Assembly: GCF_014931605.1 (NCBI RefSeq)
Contig: NZ_CP053382.1
Coordinates: 2,666,001-2,730,000 of the forward strand
Reading direction: 5' to 3'
DNA length: 64,000 nucleotides
Origin: Halomonas sp. MCCC 1A13316
GTDB taxonomy: Bacteria; Pseudomonadota; Gammaproteobacteria; Pseudomonadales; Halomonadaceae
Position numbers and translations under genes: made by a program. Of the stretch, positions 2,896 through 36,072 are shown one piece after another. Every line of letters starts with the position of its first letter. The first letter of the stretch is position 1. The notes beneath the pieces are model-generated. The model searched no databases. It was given only the letters and a program-made list of their open reading frames with translations, and was not told where the DNA came from.

Positions 2896-3909
2896 TCAGC
2901 GCGCGTGAATAATAACTTCCACTCGGCGATTCTGAGCCCGCCCCTCCCTCGTGTCGTTGCTGGCCAGGGGGCGTGTATCGGCGAGGCCCACTGCGCGAAG
3001 ACGCTCTGAGTCGACACCCGCCCGCTCAAGGGCGTGAACGATGGCGATAGCCCTGGCACTGGAGAGCACCCAATTGGAGGGGAATTCTTCGGTCTGAATC
3101 GAACGACTGTCGGTATGCCCCTCCACAGCGACTTCTCCATCGTGGCGCTGGATCACTTCCATCAGGCTCTGAACGAGCGCCTCACCGTCGTCGGTCAACT
3201 CGGCCGTCGCGGTGGGAAACAGCATCCGATCCTCCACGCGCAGCTTGATACCCTCGGCCACCCGCGAAACCTCAACTCCCTCGAGGTCTGCCAGGTATGG
3301 GGCATCGTCCAAACGCTCGCTCAGCACGGCTTGCAGCTCCTCGGTCGCCGCTATGGCTTGCGGGTCGATTACCCCAACGCCGTTCGGCGGGCGATCGGTC
3401 AGCACCAGCGCAAATTCGGCAGCGGAAACCGGCAGTGGGCCGTTGGCCACCAACACCGGTTGCGGAGACGCCGGTGGCGACAATACAGGCAGAGGCGACT
3501 CACGTTTCGCCAACAGGGCCAGCGGCGTGGGCGGAGCCGTAAAGGCAACCCGTTCGCTCGGCGCCGGGTGCGGTAGCCCTGCCACGCCCAGCGCAGCTGC
3601 AATAGCAGATTGGCTCAGCTGGCCGCGAGCCGGACGAGGCACGGCCGGCACAGGCAACGCCTTTGCCATCTCACTGGGCAACGGAATGGCAAAGGGAACG
3701 TGCGTGGCGAGTGGCGCTGCCTCCTCGTCAGGCTGCCCGAAGCTGGAAAGCGTAAAGATGAGCACCATCAGCGCCACCAGAAGGGTCATGATGTCCAGGT
3801 AGCCGATCATCCAGGTGCTGTCCTGATCGTGATCGTAGTGGGTCGGCATCAGTGATTCGTGGCGCATGGGCCCACGATGATCACCGCTGCTTGAGTGCAG
3901 GGTACTCAT
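2896..3909 (-). CDS. MotB-like stator/OmpA-family protein
   Basis: This 337-residue protein has one N-terminal membrane helix (WMIGYLDIMTLLVALMVLIF, about 33-55) and a C-terminal OmpA/MotB peptidoglycan-binding domain (about 215-335) with the motifs VEGHTDSR, SNWVLSSARA and NRRVEVII. Asp39 in the helix occupies the place of the proton- or sodium-conducting Asp of MotB/PomB, so a stator-type role is plausible. The linker between the two parts is long and Pro/Ala-rich. No motA partner is adjacent, which is unusual because motA and motB are normally paired. The start is uncertain: Met15 and Met21 are alternatives and no strong ribosome binding site is seen. It could instead serve a non-flagellar envelope complex. 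Confidence 0.72.
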   Translation of the reverse strand: MSTLHSSSGDHRGPMRHESLMPTHYDHDQDSTWMIGYLDIMTLLVALMVLIFTLSSFGQPDEEAAPLATHVPFAIPLPSEMAKALPVPAVPRPARGQLSQSAIAAALGVAGLPHPAPSERVAFTAPPTPLALLAKRESPLPVLSPPASPQPVLVANGPLPVSAAEFALVLTDRPPNGVGVIDPQAIAATEELQAVLSERLDDAPYLADLEGVEVSRVAEGIKLRVEDRMLFPTATAELTDDGEALVQSLMEVIQRHDGEVAVEGHTDSRSIQTEEFPSNWVLSSARAIAIVHALERAGVDSERLRAVGLADTRPLASNDTREGRAQNRRVEVIIHAR

Positions 3910-31040: not shown

Positions 31041-31067
31041 TAAAGTTATCCAGCGCGCTGCCGATAG
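31041..31067 (+). promoter_or_regulatory. Sigma-28 (FliA) promoter of flgMN
   Basis: TAAAGTTA, 11 bases, GCCGATAG matches 14 of 16 FliA consensus positions and ends 34 bp before the flgM GTG start. Confidence 0.88.
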
Positions 31068-31100: not shown

Positions 31101-31382
31101 GTGAAAATCAACAGCCAGAACCCCCTGACTCGCCCGACCCAGACGACTCCGCGCGAGGAGGCTCAGCCGGTCAAGGGTGCCACTCCTGCAGGACAGCAGG
31201 AACCCGGCCCATCTGCCGCCACCCATCTCAGCCAGAAGGCCGCCGACACCTCACGTGACGTCGATATGACACGGGTCGAGGAGATTCGCGAGGCCATTCG
31301 CGAGGGGCGGCTGGAAATTCGTGCCGAGCGCATTGCCGATGCCCTGATCGAATCGCTGTCTGCGGAGAGCCGTGGGGAATGA
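31101..31382 (+). CDS. flgM: Anti-sigma-28 factor FlgM
   Basis: FlgM holds FliA inactive until hook completion, when it is exported. The GTG at 31101 is chosen because GAGG lies 8 bases upstream and the product then starts VKINSQNPLTRPTQTTP, as in the family; it has 93 residues. The C-terminal sigma-binding helices (VEEIREAIREGRLEIRAERIADALIESL) are conserved and the N-terminal half is unstructured in composition. FliA transcribes it, giving an autoregulatory loop. The stop overlaps flgN by 4 bp. Confidence 0.92.
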   Translation: MKINSQNPLTRPTQTTPREEAQPVKGATPAGQQEPGPSAATHLSQKAADTSRDVDMTRVEEIREAIREGRLEIRAERIADALIESLSAESRGE

Positions 31383-31828
31383 GCCTGGCGAAGCTTCTTC
31401 AGGAACAACAGCGGCGCTTGGGCGGAGTCATCGAACTGCTTCAGCAAGAGCGCACCGTACTGGCCAATGCTGAGATCGATGGCAACGTGCTCGGCGAAAT
31501 TGCCGTGCAGAAGCAGACGCTACTGGCCAAGCTGGAAGCCAGCGAAACGCTGCGTCAAGGCGTACAGCAGCGGCTGGGCTATGCCAGCGGAGCGGAAGGA
31601 GCACGCCAAGCAGCGACTGATGCCGGCTGTGAAAACGCTTGGTTGCATACCCTTGAACTGACTCGCGAAGCCCAGCGTCTCAATGTCCTGAACGGGAAGT
31701 TGGTGAAACTACGCATGGAGCAGAACACACGCCTTCTGGAATATATTCATCAGGCCGCAGAGAAAACCGTATATCGCTCCAGCGGGCGTGTTGCCGCCCA
31801 GTCGGGGCGCATCAATGCCTCGGTCTAG
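31379..31828 (+). CDS. flgN: Flagellar chaperone FlgN
   Basis: FlgN is the export chaperone for FlgK and FlgL. The 149-residue protein is helical with the FlgN-like core LGGVIELLQQERTVLANAEIDGNVLGEIAVQKQTLLAKLE. It is translationally coupled to flgM through the ATGA overlap. Sequence conservation in this family is low, so position supports the call. Confidence 0.88.
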   Translation: MSLAKLLQEQQRRLGGVIELLQQERTVLANAEIDGNVLGEIAVQKQTLLAKLEASETLRQGVQQRLGYASGAEGARQAATDAGCENAWLHTLELTREAQRLNVLNGKLVKLRMEQNTRLLEYIHQAAEKTVYRSSGRVAAQSGRINASV

Positions 31829-32040: not shown

Positions 32041-34047
32041 TTACCACAGGCTATCGATCAGATCGTCGTCGAAGGTCGTGATCACCACGGTGTTACGTCC
32101 ATCCGCCTTGGCCTTGTAGCTCGCCTCGTCGGCGCGAGCGAGCACGGTCTCGGCCGACTCGTCGCCCTCTTGCAGCGCCGTGACTCCCATGCTGAGCGTG
32201 ATGGCGTAGGTCTTGTCCTCATTGGTCACCGTGACCTCGGACACTGCGCGACGCAAGGACTCGGCAATCTCACTCGCCTGCTTGATCGTACAGCTGGGTA
32301 GCAGGACGGCGAATTCATCGCCGCCCTGGCGAGCGACGTGATCGCTGCGCCGCACTTCCCAGGCTACCACCTGAGCGACTCGCCGCAGCATCTCGTCACC
32401 CAGGGCGTGCCCACCCTCGTCATTGATCGGCTTGAAGCGATCGAGATCGAACAGGATCAGCACCGAGGGGGTACCAGTCTTGGCATACTCCGCCAGTGCC
32501 TCCTCGAGGCGTCGCTCGAAGCCTCGCCTATTGAGCAGCCCCGTCAAGGGGTCGTGTTCGGCCTCCCAGCGCTGCAGTGCCTCCTGCTGCCGTCGCTCAG
32601 TGATGTCCTTTACCATGCCCACGAAACCCAGCGACTGCTCGTTGCCCTGCACCTGACTGGCATGGACCTCGACCCACAGCGTGGCCCCGCTTGAATGGAG
32701 GAAACGTATTTGGCGCACGAAATCGTTGCCGGTTGCCAGGGTATGCTGCCACATGTCCTCGGCCCCCCGCTGGTCTGCGGGGTGTATGCGCTCCCACCAC
32801 TCTCTGTCGCCATGCAGCTCGTCGAGCCCGAGCAGTTCGAGAAGCGCCGGGTTCAGATAGTTGAGACGACCGTTCAGATCCGCCACGAACATGCCAATCG
32901 GAGTCGAGCCGAGCACCGCATCGAGAAACGCCTGACGATCGCGCAGGTGTTCCAGCGCCGCCAGACGCTCGTGCTCGAGGTGGTTGAAGCTGCTGGCGAC
33001 CTGACGCAGCTCATGCATGTTGGTGGAAAGCTCCAGATAACGCCTCTCGCCCGCTCCGACCTGGGCGATCTGCCGTTCGAGCCGGTGCAGGGGGCGCAGC
33101 AGTCGCCTGACCAAAAGGCGCATGGTAATCAAAAGTACTACCGCCAGTACCAGCCAAGCCCACCATAGCCGGCTCAGAAAGTCGCCCAAGGGCTGCCGAA
33201 CCTGGGCCTGGGGTATCGCCACCTTGACGATCCAATTAGCCGGCCAGATCTGGCGATACGACATCAGGGTCGGGGCACCGCTGTTTGCCTGAGTGACCGT
33301 TTCCCCCTGCCAACCATCCAGCGCCTGCTGCAGCGCCGGAGAGTCGTCAAGGGCCTCCCCCCTGAGCGCTAATGGCTGGCGCCGCGGATGAAAGAGCCGC
33401 TCGCCCTCTGCGGTGAATACCGATACGTAGCCATCCTCGCCCAAGCGGATCGTCTCCAACCGGCGAAACAGGCCGCCTTGGGTGAGGTTGATCATGCCGC
33501 CGACCACGCCGGCAAATCTACCTAGCTCGTCGAAGCGCGGCACCAGCATCAACACCAGGGAGTCACCGCTCGCCCTGCCGATGAAGGGGTGGCTGACGTA
33601 AGGCCATGGTGAGTGTCGAACCATGCGGAAATATTCCGTGTCTGCGGTTTCAAGCCCCACTCGCCCCGGCACGATGGGCGAATCCGCAACGACACGCCCT
33701 TCGTCATCGGTCACCATCAAACCCTCGAACCACTCCAGCAGCACCTGGTTATTGGCCAATAGAGACGCAAGCTCATCTGCCTCGGCATCACGCAGATCCC
33801 GTTCGAGTCGCTTGAGCGCGCCCATCCTGCGGTCGACCTGCCGGGTCAAGTCATCGGCGATCAGTTGCGATTCGTAGCGCAGATGCGAGAGATTGGCTTC
33901 ATCGACGAGCCCCTTGCCAAACTGCCAGGCCAGTACCAGAACGACGCCGACGATTACCAGCCAGGTCATGGCCAGCCCCGCTAGGAGACGCCCCTGCAGC
34001 GAACAGATCGAGCGAGCCAGTGACGCGATTGGTGCCATCACGTGCAA
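32041..34047 (-). CDS. Membrane diguanylate cyclase (dCache-HAMP-PAS-GGDEF)
   Basis: This is a 668-residue sensor protein. It has a membrane helix (about 20-43), a periplasmic dCache-type domain (about 48-290), a second helix (about 298-318), a HAMP-like linker, a PAS domain (about 370-485) and a C-terminal GGDEF domain. The active site reads ARQGGDEFAVLLP and is intact, with an RRSD inhibitory site five residues before it, so it should make c-di-GMP subject to product inhibition. The upstream FliA-type promoter ties its expression to completed hooks. It is divergent from the degenerate GGDEF-EAL gene. The ligand is unknown. Confidence 0.88.
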   Translation of the reverse strand: MHVMAPIASLARSICSLQGRLLAGLAMTWLVIVGVVLVLAWQFGKGLVDEANLSHLRYESQLIADDLTRQVDRRMGALKRLERDLRDAEADELASLLANNQVLLEWFEGLMVTDDEGRVVADSPIVPGRVGLETADTEYFRMVRHSPWPYVSHPFIGRASGDSLVLMLVPRFDELGRFAGVVGGMINLTQGGLFRRLETIRLGEDGYVSVFTAEGERLFHPRRQPLALRGEALDDSPALQQALDGWQGETVTQANSGAPTLMSYRQIWPANWIVKVAIPQAQVRQPLGDFLSRLWWAWLVLAVVLLITMRLLVRRLLRPLHRLERQIAQVGAGERRYLELSTNMHELRQVASSFNHLEHERLAALEHLRDRQAFLDAVLGSTPIGMFVADLNGRLNYLNPALLELLGLDELHGDREWWERIHPADQRGAEDMWQHTLATGNDFVRQIRFLHSSGATLWVEVHASQVQGNEQSLGFVGMVKDITERRQQEALQRWEAEHDPLTGLLNRRGFERRLEEALAEYAKTGTPSVLILFDLDRFKPINDEGGHALGDEMLRRVAQVVAWEVRRSDHVARQGGDEFAVLLPSCTIKQASEIAESLRRAVSEVTVTNEDKTYAITLSMGVTALQEGDESAETVLARADEASYKAKADGRNTVVITTFDDDLIDSLW

Positions 34048-34152
34048 TGAAATCCCCTTGATGGAGGTAGAATATGGCCTGTCGGCTTCGCCTTGACAGA
34101 GTGTACCGCCTCTTCCTGGCAGCCCCGCACCAAGGCAGGAGAACTAACTTCG

Positions 34153-34179
34153 TTATCGGCACGCCCGAAGCGAACTTGA
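34153..34179 (-). promoter_or_regulatory. Sigma-28 (FliA) promoter of the diguanylate cyclase gene
   Basis: The minus strand reads TCAAGTTC, 11 bases, GCCGATAA. The -10 element is perfect and the -35 element matches 6 of 8. It lies about 105 bp upstream of the start codon at 34047. Confidence 0.7.
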
Positions 34180-34200
34180 GCCCTGTAGACGCATCAAAAC

Positions 34201-36072
34201 ATGTTACTCAACATGACGACCCTACCCCTCAACGCAAGGGAGGGGGGAACCTTTGCTCAAGTCCTGGCGAGGCAGGCCGATAAAGATTTGAAGTCGACCC
34301 GAACTCAACTTAATGAAGCCGCTCAGATGACCGAAAAAGGTAACCGTCCCCCGGGCAAGCACTTGCATGTCCTTGCTCAACACCCGGCGAGGTTGGTGCA
34401 ACATGCCTTCGAGCAGAGCCAGACCGGTATGGTCATCACCGACCAGAATGGCATCATTGTGCTGGTCAACGATGCCTTTTGCCGCATCGCCGGTAGCGAT
34501 TGCGCCGAAACGAGCGGTTGGCCGATCGAGCATTTCTACGTCTCCCGTCGCACGCCTTCGCACCTGCCGGTTACCGCTGGCACCAAAACGAACCTGACAC
34601 ACTCCTGGCAACAGGAAGTGCTCTGTCGTCGCGCCGATGGCGAGTCACTACCGGTATTGATGACGGTCGACGCGATACTCGACGAACGCCAGCAACCAGG
34701 CCACTTTCTGCATAGCTTCGTCCAGCTCACCGGAGCCAACGGCGAGATACTCGACGATCGTCACTGGATTCACATCGATCCCATCACCGGCCTGCCCAAC
34801 TGGCTGTTGCTGCGCGACCGCCTGGGCCACGCTCTGGCCCAGTCCGAGCGTGCCGACACCACCCTGGCGCTGCTGTTCATCGATATCGACCGATTCAAGA
34901 CCGTCAACGACGCGGCAGGGCATATCGAGGGAGACCGCATGTTGGGCGAACTGGCCCAGCGGCTGCAACGCGAGGTGCGCAGCAAGGATACCCTGGCCAG
35001 GCTTGGCAGCGACCAGTTCGTGGTTCTGCTGGAAAAGGATGGCACTGCGGAGGCGGCACAGCTGGTAGCAGAACGCCTGCAGGAAGCCCTGGACCCCCCC
35101 TTTATCTCGGGGGATCGCTATTTGCTGATGACGGCATCGATCGGCATTGCCTTTTACCCCACCGATGCCGAAGATGTCGAGACGCTGCTTACAGCCGCCC
35201 GGAGCGCCATGTTCATCGCCCGCAAGAAGGGGCCCGGCCGCCTGGCCTTCGTCGATCATCGTTTGACGGCACGACTCAAGGAAAAACAACAGCTCGAGAG
35301 CCTGCTCAGCGAAGCCGTTCATATGCCGGAGCAACACTTTGTCTTGCATTACCAGCCGGAGCTTGATCGGCACAGCCTTCTCTGTACCGGCTTGGAAGCC
35401 GTACTGCGCTGGAAACGTCCCAAGCATTGGCAGCAACCACCGGGATACTACATGGACGTTCTCGCCCGCCTGGGACTTGGCGTAAGACTCAACCGCTGGA
35501 TGATCCAGACCTCGATATCCGACCATCGCCAATGGCATGACGCCGGCTCTGCCCTGGGAGGGCTGCCGGTTTCCATCCAGCTCTGCGAATCGCATCTGGC
35601 GCAGGACACCTTCGACCACAGGCCACTGGACCATTTCCTGCGGCACCAGGAGACGGGGGCCTTCGAATGGCTGACCCTGAAGGTACCCTCACACGGTATC
35701 GGCAGCGACCTGGACAAGGCAACCCACCTGCTGAAGCGGCTCGAGCGGCTCGGCATACGCCTTGCGGTCGAGGGCGTCGGCACAAACTCCGTCGACCTCG
35801 CCTGGCTATCTCGCCTGCCTTTTCACAAGGCCACCATCGATGCTCAACTGGTCGGAGCGCATCAGGATGGGCGGCGCTTGGTGGAGGCATCGTGTCGCCT
35901 GCTGAACGCTCTCGATATCGAGCCCGTCATCGTCGGCATCGACAACGTAAACCTGGCATCCAACCTGGAGCCGGTCTCCGCACGTCTCGTGCAGGGCAAC
36001 CTGTACTGCCCGGCGATGCCGGCCGAGGCATTGAGCCAATGGCTCGAGGAGCACAGGCCGGCCGAGGAGTGA
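34201..36072 (+). CDS. PAS protein with degenerate GGDEF and EAL domains (probable c-di-GMP receptor)
   Basis: This is a 623-residue soluble protein: PAS (about 68-180), GGDEF-like (about 195-350) and EAL-like (about 370-615). The GGDEF motif is GSDQF (269-273), incompatible with known cyclases, but RSKD at 260-263 keeps the RxxD inhibitory site at correct spacing. In the EAL domain EAL is EAV and the DDFGTG loop reads VEGVGTN. The catalytic Lys is replaced (TIDAQLV) and the late Glu loop is lost. It therefore probably senses rather than makes or breaks c-di-GMP, in the manner of FimX-type proteins. Met43 (34327) is an alternative start, because a FliA-like promoter lies at 34257-34283 inside the longest frame. 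Confidence 0.85.
   Translation: MLLNMTTLPLNAREGGTFAQVLARQADKDLKSTRTQLNEAAQMTEKGNRPPGKHLHVLAQHPARLVQHAFEQSQTGMVITDQNGIIVLVNDAFCRIAGSDCAETSGWPIEHFYVSRRTPSHLPVTAGTKTNLTHSWQQEVLCRRADGESLPVLMTVDAILDERQQPGHFLHSFVQLTGANGEILDDRHWIHIDPITGLPNWLLLRDRLGHALAQSERADTTLALLFIDIDRFKTVNDAAGHIEGDRMLGELAQRLQREVRSKDTLARLGSDQFVVLLEKDGTAEAAQLVAERLQEALDPPFISGDRYLLMTASIGIAFYPTDAEDVETLLTAARSAMFIARKKGPGRLAFVDHRLTARLKEKQQLESLLSEAVHMPEQHFVLHYQPELDRHSLLCTGLEAVLRWKRPKHWQQPPGYYMDVLARLGLGVRLNRWMIQTSISDHRQWHDAGSALGGLPVSIQLCESHLAQDTFDHRPLDHFLRHQETGAFEWLTLKVPSHGIGSDLDKATHLLKRLERLGIRLAVEGVGTNSVDLAWLSRLPFHKATIDAQLVGAHQDGRRLVEASCRLLNALDIEPVIVGIDNVNLASNLEPVSARLVQGNLYCPAMPAEALSQWLEEHRPAEE
34257..34283 (+). promoter_or_regulatory. Possible sigma-28 promoter inside the 5' end of the degenerate GGDEF-EAL ORF
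   Basis: TCAAGTCC, 11 bases, GCCGATAA has a perfect -10 and 5 of 8 at -35. If used, translation would begin at ATG 34327, with a weak GAAG ribosome binding site 8 bases upstream. Confidence 0.4.

Follow-up and report, generated by a model that had tools for sequence, protein, structure and literature searches.

Genes for the enzymes and receptors of cyclic diguanosine monophosphate (c-di-GMP) are already known to be controlled by the flagellar sigma factor FliA (sigma-28) in other bacteria, and the locus described here is a variant of that theme. It consists of a diguanylate cyclase gene and a divergently oriented gene for a degenerate GGDEF-EAL protein (below, the partner), which lie beside the flagellar genes flgM and flgN in a 64,000-nucleotide stretch of Halomonas sp. 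MCCC 1A13316 (contig NZ_CP053382.1, positions 2,666,001 to 2,730,000), here called the window. The analyzed genome is one contig of 4.49 Mb. Species of Billgrantia were earlier classified in Halomonas, and the best matches of the partner protein are from B. lactosivorans and B. antri, which makes Billgrantia the nearest named relatives. We think it reasonably probable that the two genes form a FliA-driven class III pair, made up of an active cyclase and a c-di-GMP-sensing pseudoenzyme. Within this explanation, the predicted FliA control of the pair is well supported and the receptor reading of the partner is plausible.

The comparisons that follow draw on portions of the papers cited. In Escherichia coli, PdeH, YcgR, and Nfr are under FliA control (PMC8669469; for PdeH also PMC6119863). 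PdeH and YcgR are, as proposed for the pair, an enzyme and an effector of c-di-GMP that share sigma-28 control; PdeH, however, destroys c-di-GMP, whereas the intact enzyme here is predicted to make it, and the genes here form a divergent pair. In Pseudomonas, the PilZ receptor FlgZ is encoded in a flgMN-flgZ operon, and it is reduced in fliA and fleQ mutants (PMC3913639). In both cases a c-di-GMP gene stands directly 3' of flgMN. Unlike FlgZ, a PilZ protein whose gene is cotranscribed with flgMN, the locus here encodes a cyclase and a degenerate GGDEF-EAL protein with boxes of their own, the cyclase gene running in the opposite direction, and neither protein is a PilZ receptor of the FlgZ/YcgR kind, with no PilZ match in either one at E <= 0.001. 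BifA of Pseudomonas putida is likewise under FliA control (PMC5300878), and c-di-GMP is higher in a fliA mutant of Pseudomonas aeruginosa (PMC4866697). HsbD of P. aeruginosa is, like the cyclase here, a diguanylate cyclase whose gene lies in the flgM region (PMC5085249); it acts through HptB-HsbR-HsbA partner switching with FlgM, and the portion of that paper used here reports no FliA promoter. The Legionella gene lpp0952, a GGDEF/EAL gene of the FliA regulon whose expression falls in a fliA mutant (PMC5655016), is tied to FliA as the partner gene appears to be, but it is a single gene, for which the same portion of text describes no cyclase partner. PopA, PelD, CdgA, and SgmT have degenerate GGDEF domains and are reported to respond to c-di-GMP, through either the active site or the RxxD motif (PMC3974145). 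The partner shares the degenerate GGDEF domain with these four proteins and also carries a dead EAL domain; no FliA-controlled cyclase partner next to flgMN is described for any of the four in what that source offered. For Halomonas, putative sigma-28 sites have been reported upstream of a chemotaxis cluster, in an account whose consulted portion does not mention the pair (PMC5907407). In a literature search that left most subscription journals outside, the pair was not found in the titles and abstract openings, among the matches listed, and the papers shown in one of these lists did not contain the name Billgrantia.

Two sigma-28 boxes between the divergent genes

The FliA consensus is TAAAGTTT-N11-GCCGATAA. 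Upstream of the cyclase gene (32041 to 34047, minus strand) lies TCAAGTTC-N11-GCCGATAA on the minus strand at 34153 to 34179 (-35 at 34179 to 34172, -10 at 34160 to 34153), and upstream of the partner gene (34327 to 36072, plus strand) lies TCAAGTCC-N11-GCCGATAA on the plus strand at 34257 to 34283. The initial annotation had read the first as a FliA promoter and the second as a possible one, and both were recovered at these positions with a perfect -10 and 11-base spacing. A search with the full consensus gave no match. The reduced pattern AAG-N14-GCCGATAA occurs nine times in the 4.49-Mb genome, against four times for the same pattern read backward, and two of the nine sites are the cyclase and partner boxes, 106 bp apart. 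A fuller pattern has 35 sites genome-wide, 11 perfect and 24 with one mismatch. When up to two mismatches were allowed, it gave 140 matches (11 perfect) against 98 for its backward-read control, and a control pattern with the spacer one base longer gave 81 matches, none perfect, against 34; many of the sites in both of these searches are due to chance. Of the 35 sites, 12 precede motility genes (fliS, fliD, flaG, flgK, flgM, cheB, two motA-type genes, and four genes for methyl-accepting chemotaxis proteins [MCPs]) and 8 precede c-di-GMP genes (the pair, a lone EAL gene, two GGDEF-EAL genes, two GGDEF genes, and one REC-HD_5 gene). Twelve of the 15 other sites were inspected, and one (L049) lies inside an apparent asd gene, as judged by eye.

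A scoring matrix built from 12 motility promoters of the analyzed genome gave 23.1 for the cyclase box and 19.8 for the partner box, while the training promoters score 22.5 to 28.9, or 20.3 to 28.3 in leave-one-out scoring. The boxes thus show what is expected of class III promoters, an 11-base spacer and scores near those of the motility promoters, with the partner box slightly below the range. On both strands of the window, seven sites score at least 13 (those of fliD, an MCP gene, flaG, flgK, flgM, and the pair), and the next reaches 12.4. When the window's five training promoters are taken out of the matrix, the cyclase and partner boxes still reach 22.6 and 18.8, and the seven sites remain distinct, at 18.8 or more against 13.2 or less for the rest. 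Genome-wide, 7 of the 15 other sites score 18.8 to 23.4, and therefore a score by itself does not prove a site across the genome; the weight of the box evidence rests on position and conservation. The genome encodes FliA itself (TIGR02479, 271.9 bits, above the cut-off) as well as FlgM. A chance origin of the two boxes was rejected on the rarity of the pattern, the matrix scores, and the conservation described below.

Conservation in one clade and contrast with the family

The partner search was evaluated for its best 80 loci, of which 13 are close (56 to 80% identity), the next reaching 34%. The genes flgM, flgN, cyclase, and partner occur in the same order and on the same strands in 11 of the 13 close named loci, namely all those whose contigs extend far enough; the contigs of L076 and L081 stop immediately 5' of the partner. 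In an alignment of 12 intergenic regions, mean identity is 93% at the 32 positions of the boxes and 61% over the rest, and the spacers of the two boxes are at 61% and 58%. In the Billgrantia relatives, the boxes stand out as conserved blocks within an intergenic region that has otherwise diverged. Ranked by conservation among 252 windows of 27 bases, overlapping windows counted, the cyclase box comes second. The box-to-start distance in the relatives is 80 to 116 bases for the cyclase and 34 to 70 for the partner, with starts extrapolated from the alignments. A cyclase box of at least 14.5, a cut chosen after the scores were seen, is present in 12 of 13 clade members, and one of at least 16 is present in 11. 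The partner box scores at least 15.3 in all 14 clade relatives and at least 16 in 12 of them; the 14 rows include L076 and L081, where flgMN linkage is not visible.

The same alignments bear on the start of the partner gene. An open reading frame of 34201 to 36072, with a start at 34201, was considered and rejected in favor of the ATG at 34327 because the matches of 5 of the 13 close named relatives start at the corresponding Met43 or no more than two residues away, an in-frame stop lies shortly 5' of this ATG in three relatives, and all 12 aligned sequences share the ATG. With this start, the partner box ends 43 bases 5' of the gene, outside the coding sequence. The cyclase probably starts at the TTG at 34047, preceded by an AAGGGGA motif recognized by eye.

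Outside the clade the picture is different. Among 151 family genomes, the partner was found in 15 (E <= 1e-120) and the cyclase in 93, and all 15 partner-bearing genomes also hold the cyclase. The surroundings of the cyclase were read for 40 of the 93 genomes. Two were flgMN-linked and 38 were not: a profile derived from members of the linked clade, which may be less sensitive in other genera, found neither flgM nor flgN closer than about 5 kb to the cyclase. A Pfam FlgN search in 15 of the 38 genomes placed flgN on another contig (8 genomes) or at least 0.6 Mb away (7 genomes), and in G039 the searched genome gave no Pfam FlgN match. Family-wide linkage to flgMN was rejected, the cyclase lying away from flgMN in the other family genomes read. 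The idea that the divergent pair is kept beside flgMN is therefore borne out by all 11 testable named relatives but was too broad, being limited to one clade. Eight of the 38 unlinked loci have a divergent partner-like gene next to the cyclase or close by, 2.2 kb away in the case of L227.

The boxes follow the same division. Outside the clade, a cyclase box of at least 14.5 was found in 1 of 39 cases and one of at least 16 in none, and none of 8 partner-like genes had a box at either threshold. As a positive control, the same matrix found a box of 16.1 to 28.3 upstream of flgN, taken to be that of flgM, in all 19 loci examined, the window's included, and 16 of these loci are from genomes outside the clade. 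When 74 upstream regions were shuffled 50 times each, the maxima ranged from 7.8 to 19.2, with 5 of the 74 at 14.7 or more. Named loci and genomes overlap in species, so the clade box counts are not independent, and Fisher values calculated from them should not be taken at face value. The 14 flgMN-linked rows group together (97/90) in a tree of 53 cyclase rows. The tree and the clade-versus-outside counts together make the FliA boxes a property of one clade, as is the flgMN site, and the predicted FliA control is thus clade-specific. We favor a gain of the boxes in this clade over their loss elsewhere.

Several points weigh against the FliA reading. The partner box is the weaker of the two, its score of 19.8 falling below that of the lowest left-out training promoter (20.3), and by conservation its window comes only 9th among the 252, overlapping windows counted. 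The one clade member that lacks a cyclase box at 14.5 is L074, with a 12-base spacer and a score of 10.4, and the deep relative L201 reaches only 14.7. Outside the clade, the L208 cyclase has a box of 15.7, and although most shuffles peak below 15, one reached 19.2. Moreover, conservation of the promoters within one clade amounts to one evolutionary event. It might also be that the boxes are unused or that a housekeeping promoter dominates, which we consider very improbable. Comparable genes, such as bifA of P. putida (PMC5300878), also have a sigma-70 promoter; between 31780 and 34400 no sigma-70-type site was found, a null result that says little because shuffled sequences averaged only 0.6 sites. 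Against disuse stands the concentration of intergenic conservation in the boxes.

An intact cyclase and a degenerate partner

The cyclase has the Pfam architecture dCache_1-HAMP-PAS-GGDEF, with a dCache_1 match just at the cut-off and a GGDEF match of 151.3 bits. Its GGDEF motif and RRSD inhibition site (I-site) are intact, and both are invariant in 11 of 11 cyclase sequences (the window and 10 relatives, with L082 left out). The GG[DE]EF motif and the catalytic-domain residues of diguanylate cyclases are conserved, and the median ratio of nonsynonymous to synonymous substitution (dN/dS) in the GGDEF domain is 0.046 (9 sequences). With intact active and inhibition sites, the protein should make c-di-GMP. 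No equivalog model scored above its cut-off for the cyclase or the partner, among the best 25 of 35 and the best 25 of 26 families, respectively.

The partner, a probable c-di-GMP-binding pseudoenzyme, consists of a PAS domain, a degenerate GGDEF domain (GSDQF, with an RSKD I-site), and a degenerate EAL domain. We take the metal-binding and catalytic positions of EAL domains to be the E of EAL, an N, an E, a DD pair, a K, and the E of EGVE. Compared with two GGDEF-EAL proteins of the same genome that have canonical EAL motifs, the partner in the window has the N, E, DD, K, and EGVE replaced, with the first E and a late Q remaining. None of the 14 partner sequences retains the N, the E, the K, or the E of EGVE, and they do not have the residues of an active EAL phosphodiesterase. 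The GGDEF motif reads GSDQF or GGDQF in 13 of the 14 and GGDEF in L081, while the RxxD motif is kept, as RSxD, in all 14; a degenerate active site with RxxD retained is the pattern of an I-site GGDEF receptor. The partner does not resemble the LapD/FimX-type receptors. The Arg of ExLxR, presumably the ligand-contact residue of such EAL receptors and the one contact checked across the partner set, is H in 4 of 14 sequences (L072, L073, L078, and L081) and Y in L202, and the LapD model gives 60.9 bits against a cut-off of 1020.

The eight partner-like proteins outside the clade have the GGDEF and RxxD motifs intact and the EAL motifs only partly changed, and it looks as though decay began in the EAL domain and went on to the GGDEF domain, with RxxD retained. 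The partner is under purifying selection, with median dN/dS values of 0.10 for GGDEF, 0.19 for EAL, and 0.285 for PAS (11 sequences), ratios that are rough because dS is near or above 1. The decayed motifs, the retained RxxD, and the selection acting on the protein lead us to regard it as a functioning pseudoenzyme and most likely an I-site c-di-GMP sensor. The earlier label of receptor agrees with the broken EAL and GGDEF active sites and the kept RxxD, and goes beyond them in the binding of c-di-GMP, which at RxxD we infer. Read in this way, the partner offers a readable example of an enzyme that is apparently becoming a sensor. Two observations count against this reading. The EAL Asp pair is retained in 6 of 14 partner orthologs, and a Vibrio cholerae enzyme with an AGDEF motif is active (PMC3974145), so that GSDQF is no proof of inactivity.

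The latter point raises the possibility that the partner is still a diguanylate cyclase despite its GSDQF or GGDQF motif, the locus then encoding two cyclases. The substrate-side residues (DIDRFK..ND) are kept in the partner, the deep members L081 and L202 still have GGDEF, and some degenerate motifs, namely AGDEF and SGDEF, are active (PMC3974145). Both of these named active cases keep the acidic fourth residue, however, which has become Q in 13 of 14 partners, and we regard a second active cyclase as improbable. A regulator built from a dead enzyme has more to recommend it, although we still rate it as rather unlikely. In that case the partner would not sense c-di-GMP but would pair with the cyclase through a GGDEF-GGDEF contact, tuning or placing it, and RxxD would serve folding or contact. 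The partner does stay beside or near the cyclase in the eight unlinked loci outside the clade, and its GGDEF fold positions are retained with a low dN/dS. Yet RxxD persists in every one of the 14 sequences while the adjacent catalytic residues decay, and the motif is not universal among the GGDEF domains of this genome, those of L150 and L154 being without it.

The favored explanation, a FliA-driven cyclase with a c-di-GMP-sensing pseudoenzyme, would work as follows. The cyclase and the partner would be late (class III) flagellar genes. On completion of the hook-basal body, FlgM would be exported and FliA freed, and both divergent promoters would then fire alongside those of flgM, fliD, flgK, and the motor and chemotaxis genes. 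The cyclase would sit in the inner membrane with its dCache sensor in the periplasm, making c-di-GMP when its ligand is sensed and limiting itself through its I-site. The partner, a soluble pseudoenzyme in this view, would have lost the ability both to make and to degrade c-di-GMP; most likely it would bind c-di-GMP at RxxD and relay the signal locally, probably through contact with the cyclase or with a protein of the flagellum or of chemotaxis. A divergent pair with a late-flagellar switch suggests that signaling begins only as the flagellum is being finished. If FliA does drive a maker of c-di-GMP at this stage, swimming cells would carry a signal usually linked to sessile life from the onset of motility. 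The contrast between related genes with and without FliA boxes makes the benefit of coupling c-di-GMP to the flagellar checkpoint testable.

Other c-di-GMP genes with FliA-like boxes

GGDEF is matched 42 times in the genome and EAL 21 times (20 above the cut-off). Seven GGDEF/EAL genes, the pair included, have a box no more than about 210 bases upstream; random placement of the 35 sites before about 44 genes would give about 0.04. The pair as the only FliA-boxed c-di-GMP locus was rejected, since six further c-di-GMP genes have FliA-like boxes, and the pair as a replacement for a missing PilZ receptor was also rejected, the genome having three PilZ matches. Two of the boxed genes, both GGDEF-EAL (L150:641-3232 and L154:7-4002), each precede a gene for a PilZ-HD_5 fusion (L279:682-2112 and L280:493-2178), and the REC-HD_5 gene (HD-GYP-like; L062:87-1448) lies 52 bases 3' of a FliA-like box scoring 17.4.

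The lone EAL gene (L155:480-1253; L260-L266; G000:C1:2611400-2613000) is divergent from motA, identified by Pfam MotA in the analyzed genome, and likely encodes a phosphodiesterase. Its relatives comprise 18 loci from 16 of 31 same-genus genomes. In seven of these loci, there is a box on the side of the gene (at least 17.6) and a box on the opposite strand (at least 14.5), and in the other 11 there is neither; by these predicted sites, the lone EAL gene provides another instance of such a box contrast. One genome that has the pair, G123, gave no lone EAL gene at E <= 1e-40.

The net direction of c-di-GMP is not readable from sequence because of these six other boxed genes, among them the likely phosphodiesterase. 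One account of the outcome, compatible with the favored explanation, is that the FliA sites are real but the module does not prepare cells for attachment: it would be one of several FliA-driven cyclases and phosphodiesterases that together keep c-di-GMP low and well buffered while cells swim, much as PdeH does in E. coli. We take this to be quite possible, if short of probable. It draws on the six additional boxed genes (the lone EAL gene beside motA, two GGDEF-EAL genes, two GGDEF genes, and one HD-GYP-like gene); on the other side, the enzyme with intact motifs at this locus is predicted to make c-di-GMP, not to remove it, and the lone EAL gene is the only one of the other boxed genes compared with relatives. 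The attachment checkpoint that the initial annotation had proposed is put forward here as a hypothesis, the other FliA-boxed c-di-GMP genes making the outcome harder to predict.

The place after flgN was read in 12 other genomes, picked from the 19 flgN loci. Five have an HDOD-GGDEF gene there on the same strand (L287-L291), so this place often holds a c-di-GMP gene. Two, of the same genus, have a degenerate GGDEF-EAL gene directed toward flgN in the place of the cyclase (L285:2175-4241 and L286:2116-3966); apart from that of flgM, no FliA box of at least 15 was found at these two loci. In the remaining five, no open reading frame matches either protein. The two GGDEF-EAL genes beside flgN in G141 and G074 encode proteins only 28 to 30% identical to the partner, and we do not call them orthologs because two other GGDEF-EAL proteins of the analyzed genome reach 26 to 28%. 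With some hesitation, we suggest as a possibility that the Billgrantia sigma-28 regulon grew into a c-di-GMP regulon by repeated capture. Genes for c-di-GMP proteins, located elsewhere and without FliA boxes in related lineages, would have settled by late flagellar promoters (the pair at flgMN, the lone EAL gene at motA) and gained FliA boxes, and one of them would have decayed stepwise, first in EAL and then in GGDEF, into a sensor of the product of its neighbor. The post-flgN site would then be one where c-di-GMP genes have repeatedly docked, both in this family and in Pseudomonas.

The gene order at the locus is flgA (identified by eye), flgM (plus strand), flgN (plus), cyclase (minus), and partner (plus). 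The gene for the anti-sigma-28 factor FlgM (31101 to 31382, plus strand) begins with a GTG 3' of its promoter, and its product matches Pfam FlgM and NCBIfam TIGR03824 above the cut-offs in a frame scanned from 31071. Its sigma-28 box, TAAAGTTA-N11-GCCGATAG, lies at 31041 to 31067 on the plus strand and scores 27.4, or 26.5 when left out of the matrix. The gene for the flagellar export chaperone FlgN (31379 to 31828, plus strand; Pfam FlgN, 67.7 bits) comes next. The pair had been said to follow flgMN directly; flgM and flgN do lie upstream, but the cyclase gene is convergent with flgN, which excludes read-through from flgMN into the cyclase. Elsewhere in the window, the FliA-like box at 2861 to 2887, upstream of an MCP gene (974 to 2797), also adjoins an open reading frame at 2896 to 3909 that appears OmpA/MotB-like by eye. 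Outside it, a FliA-like box scoring 23.4 lies 70 bases upstream of a gene for a 79-amino-acid protein without a Pfam match (L057:1194-1430).

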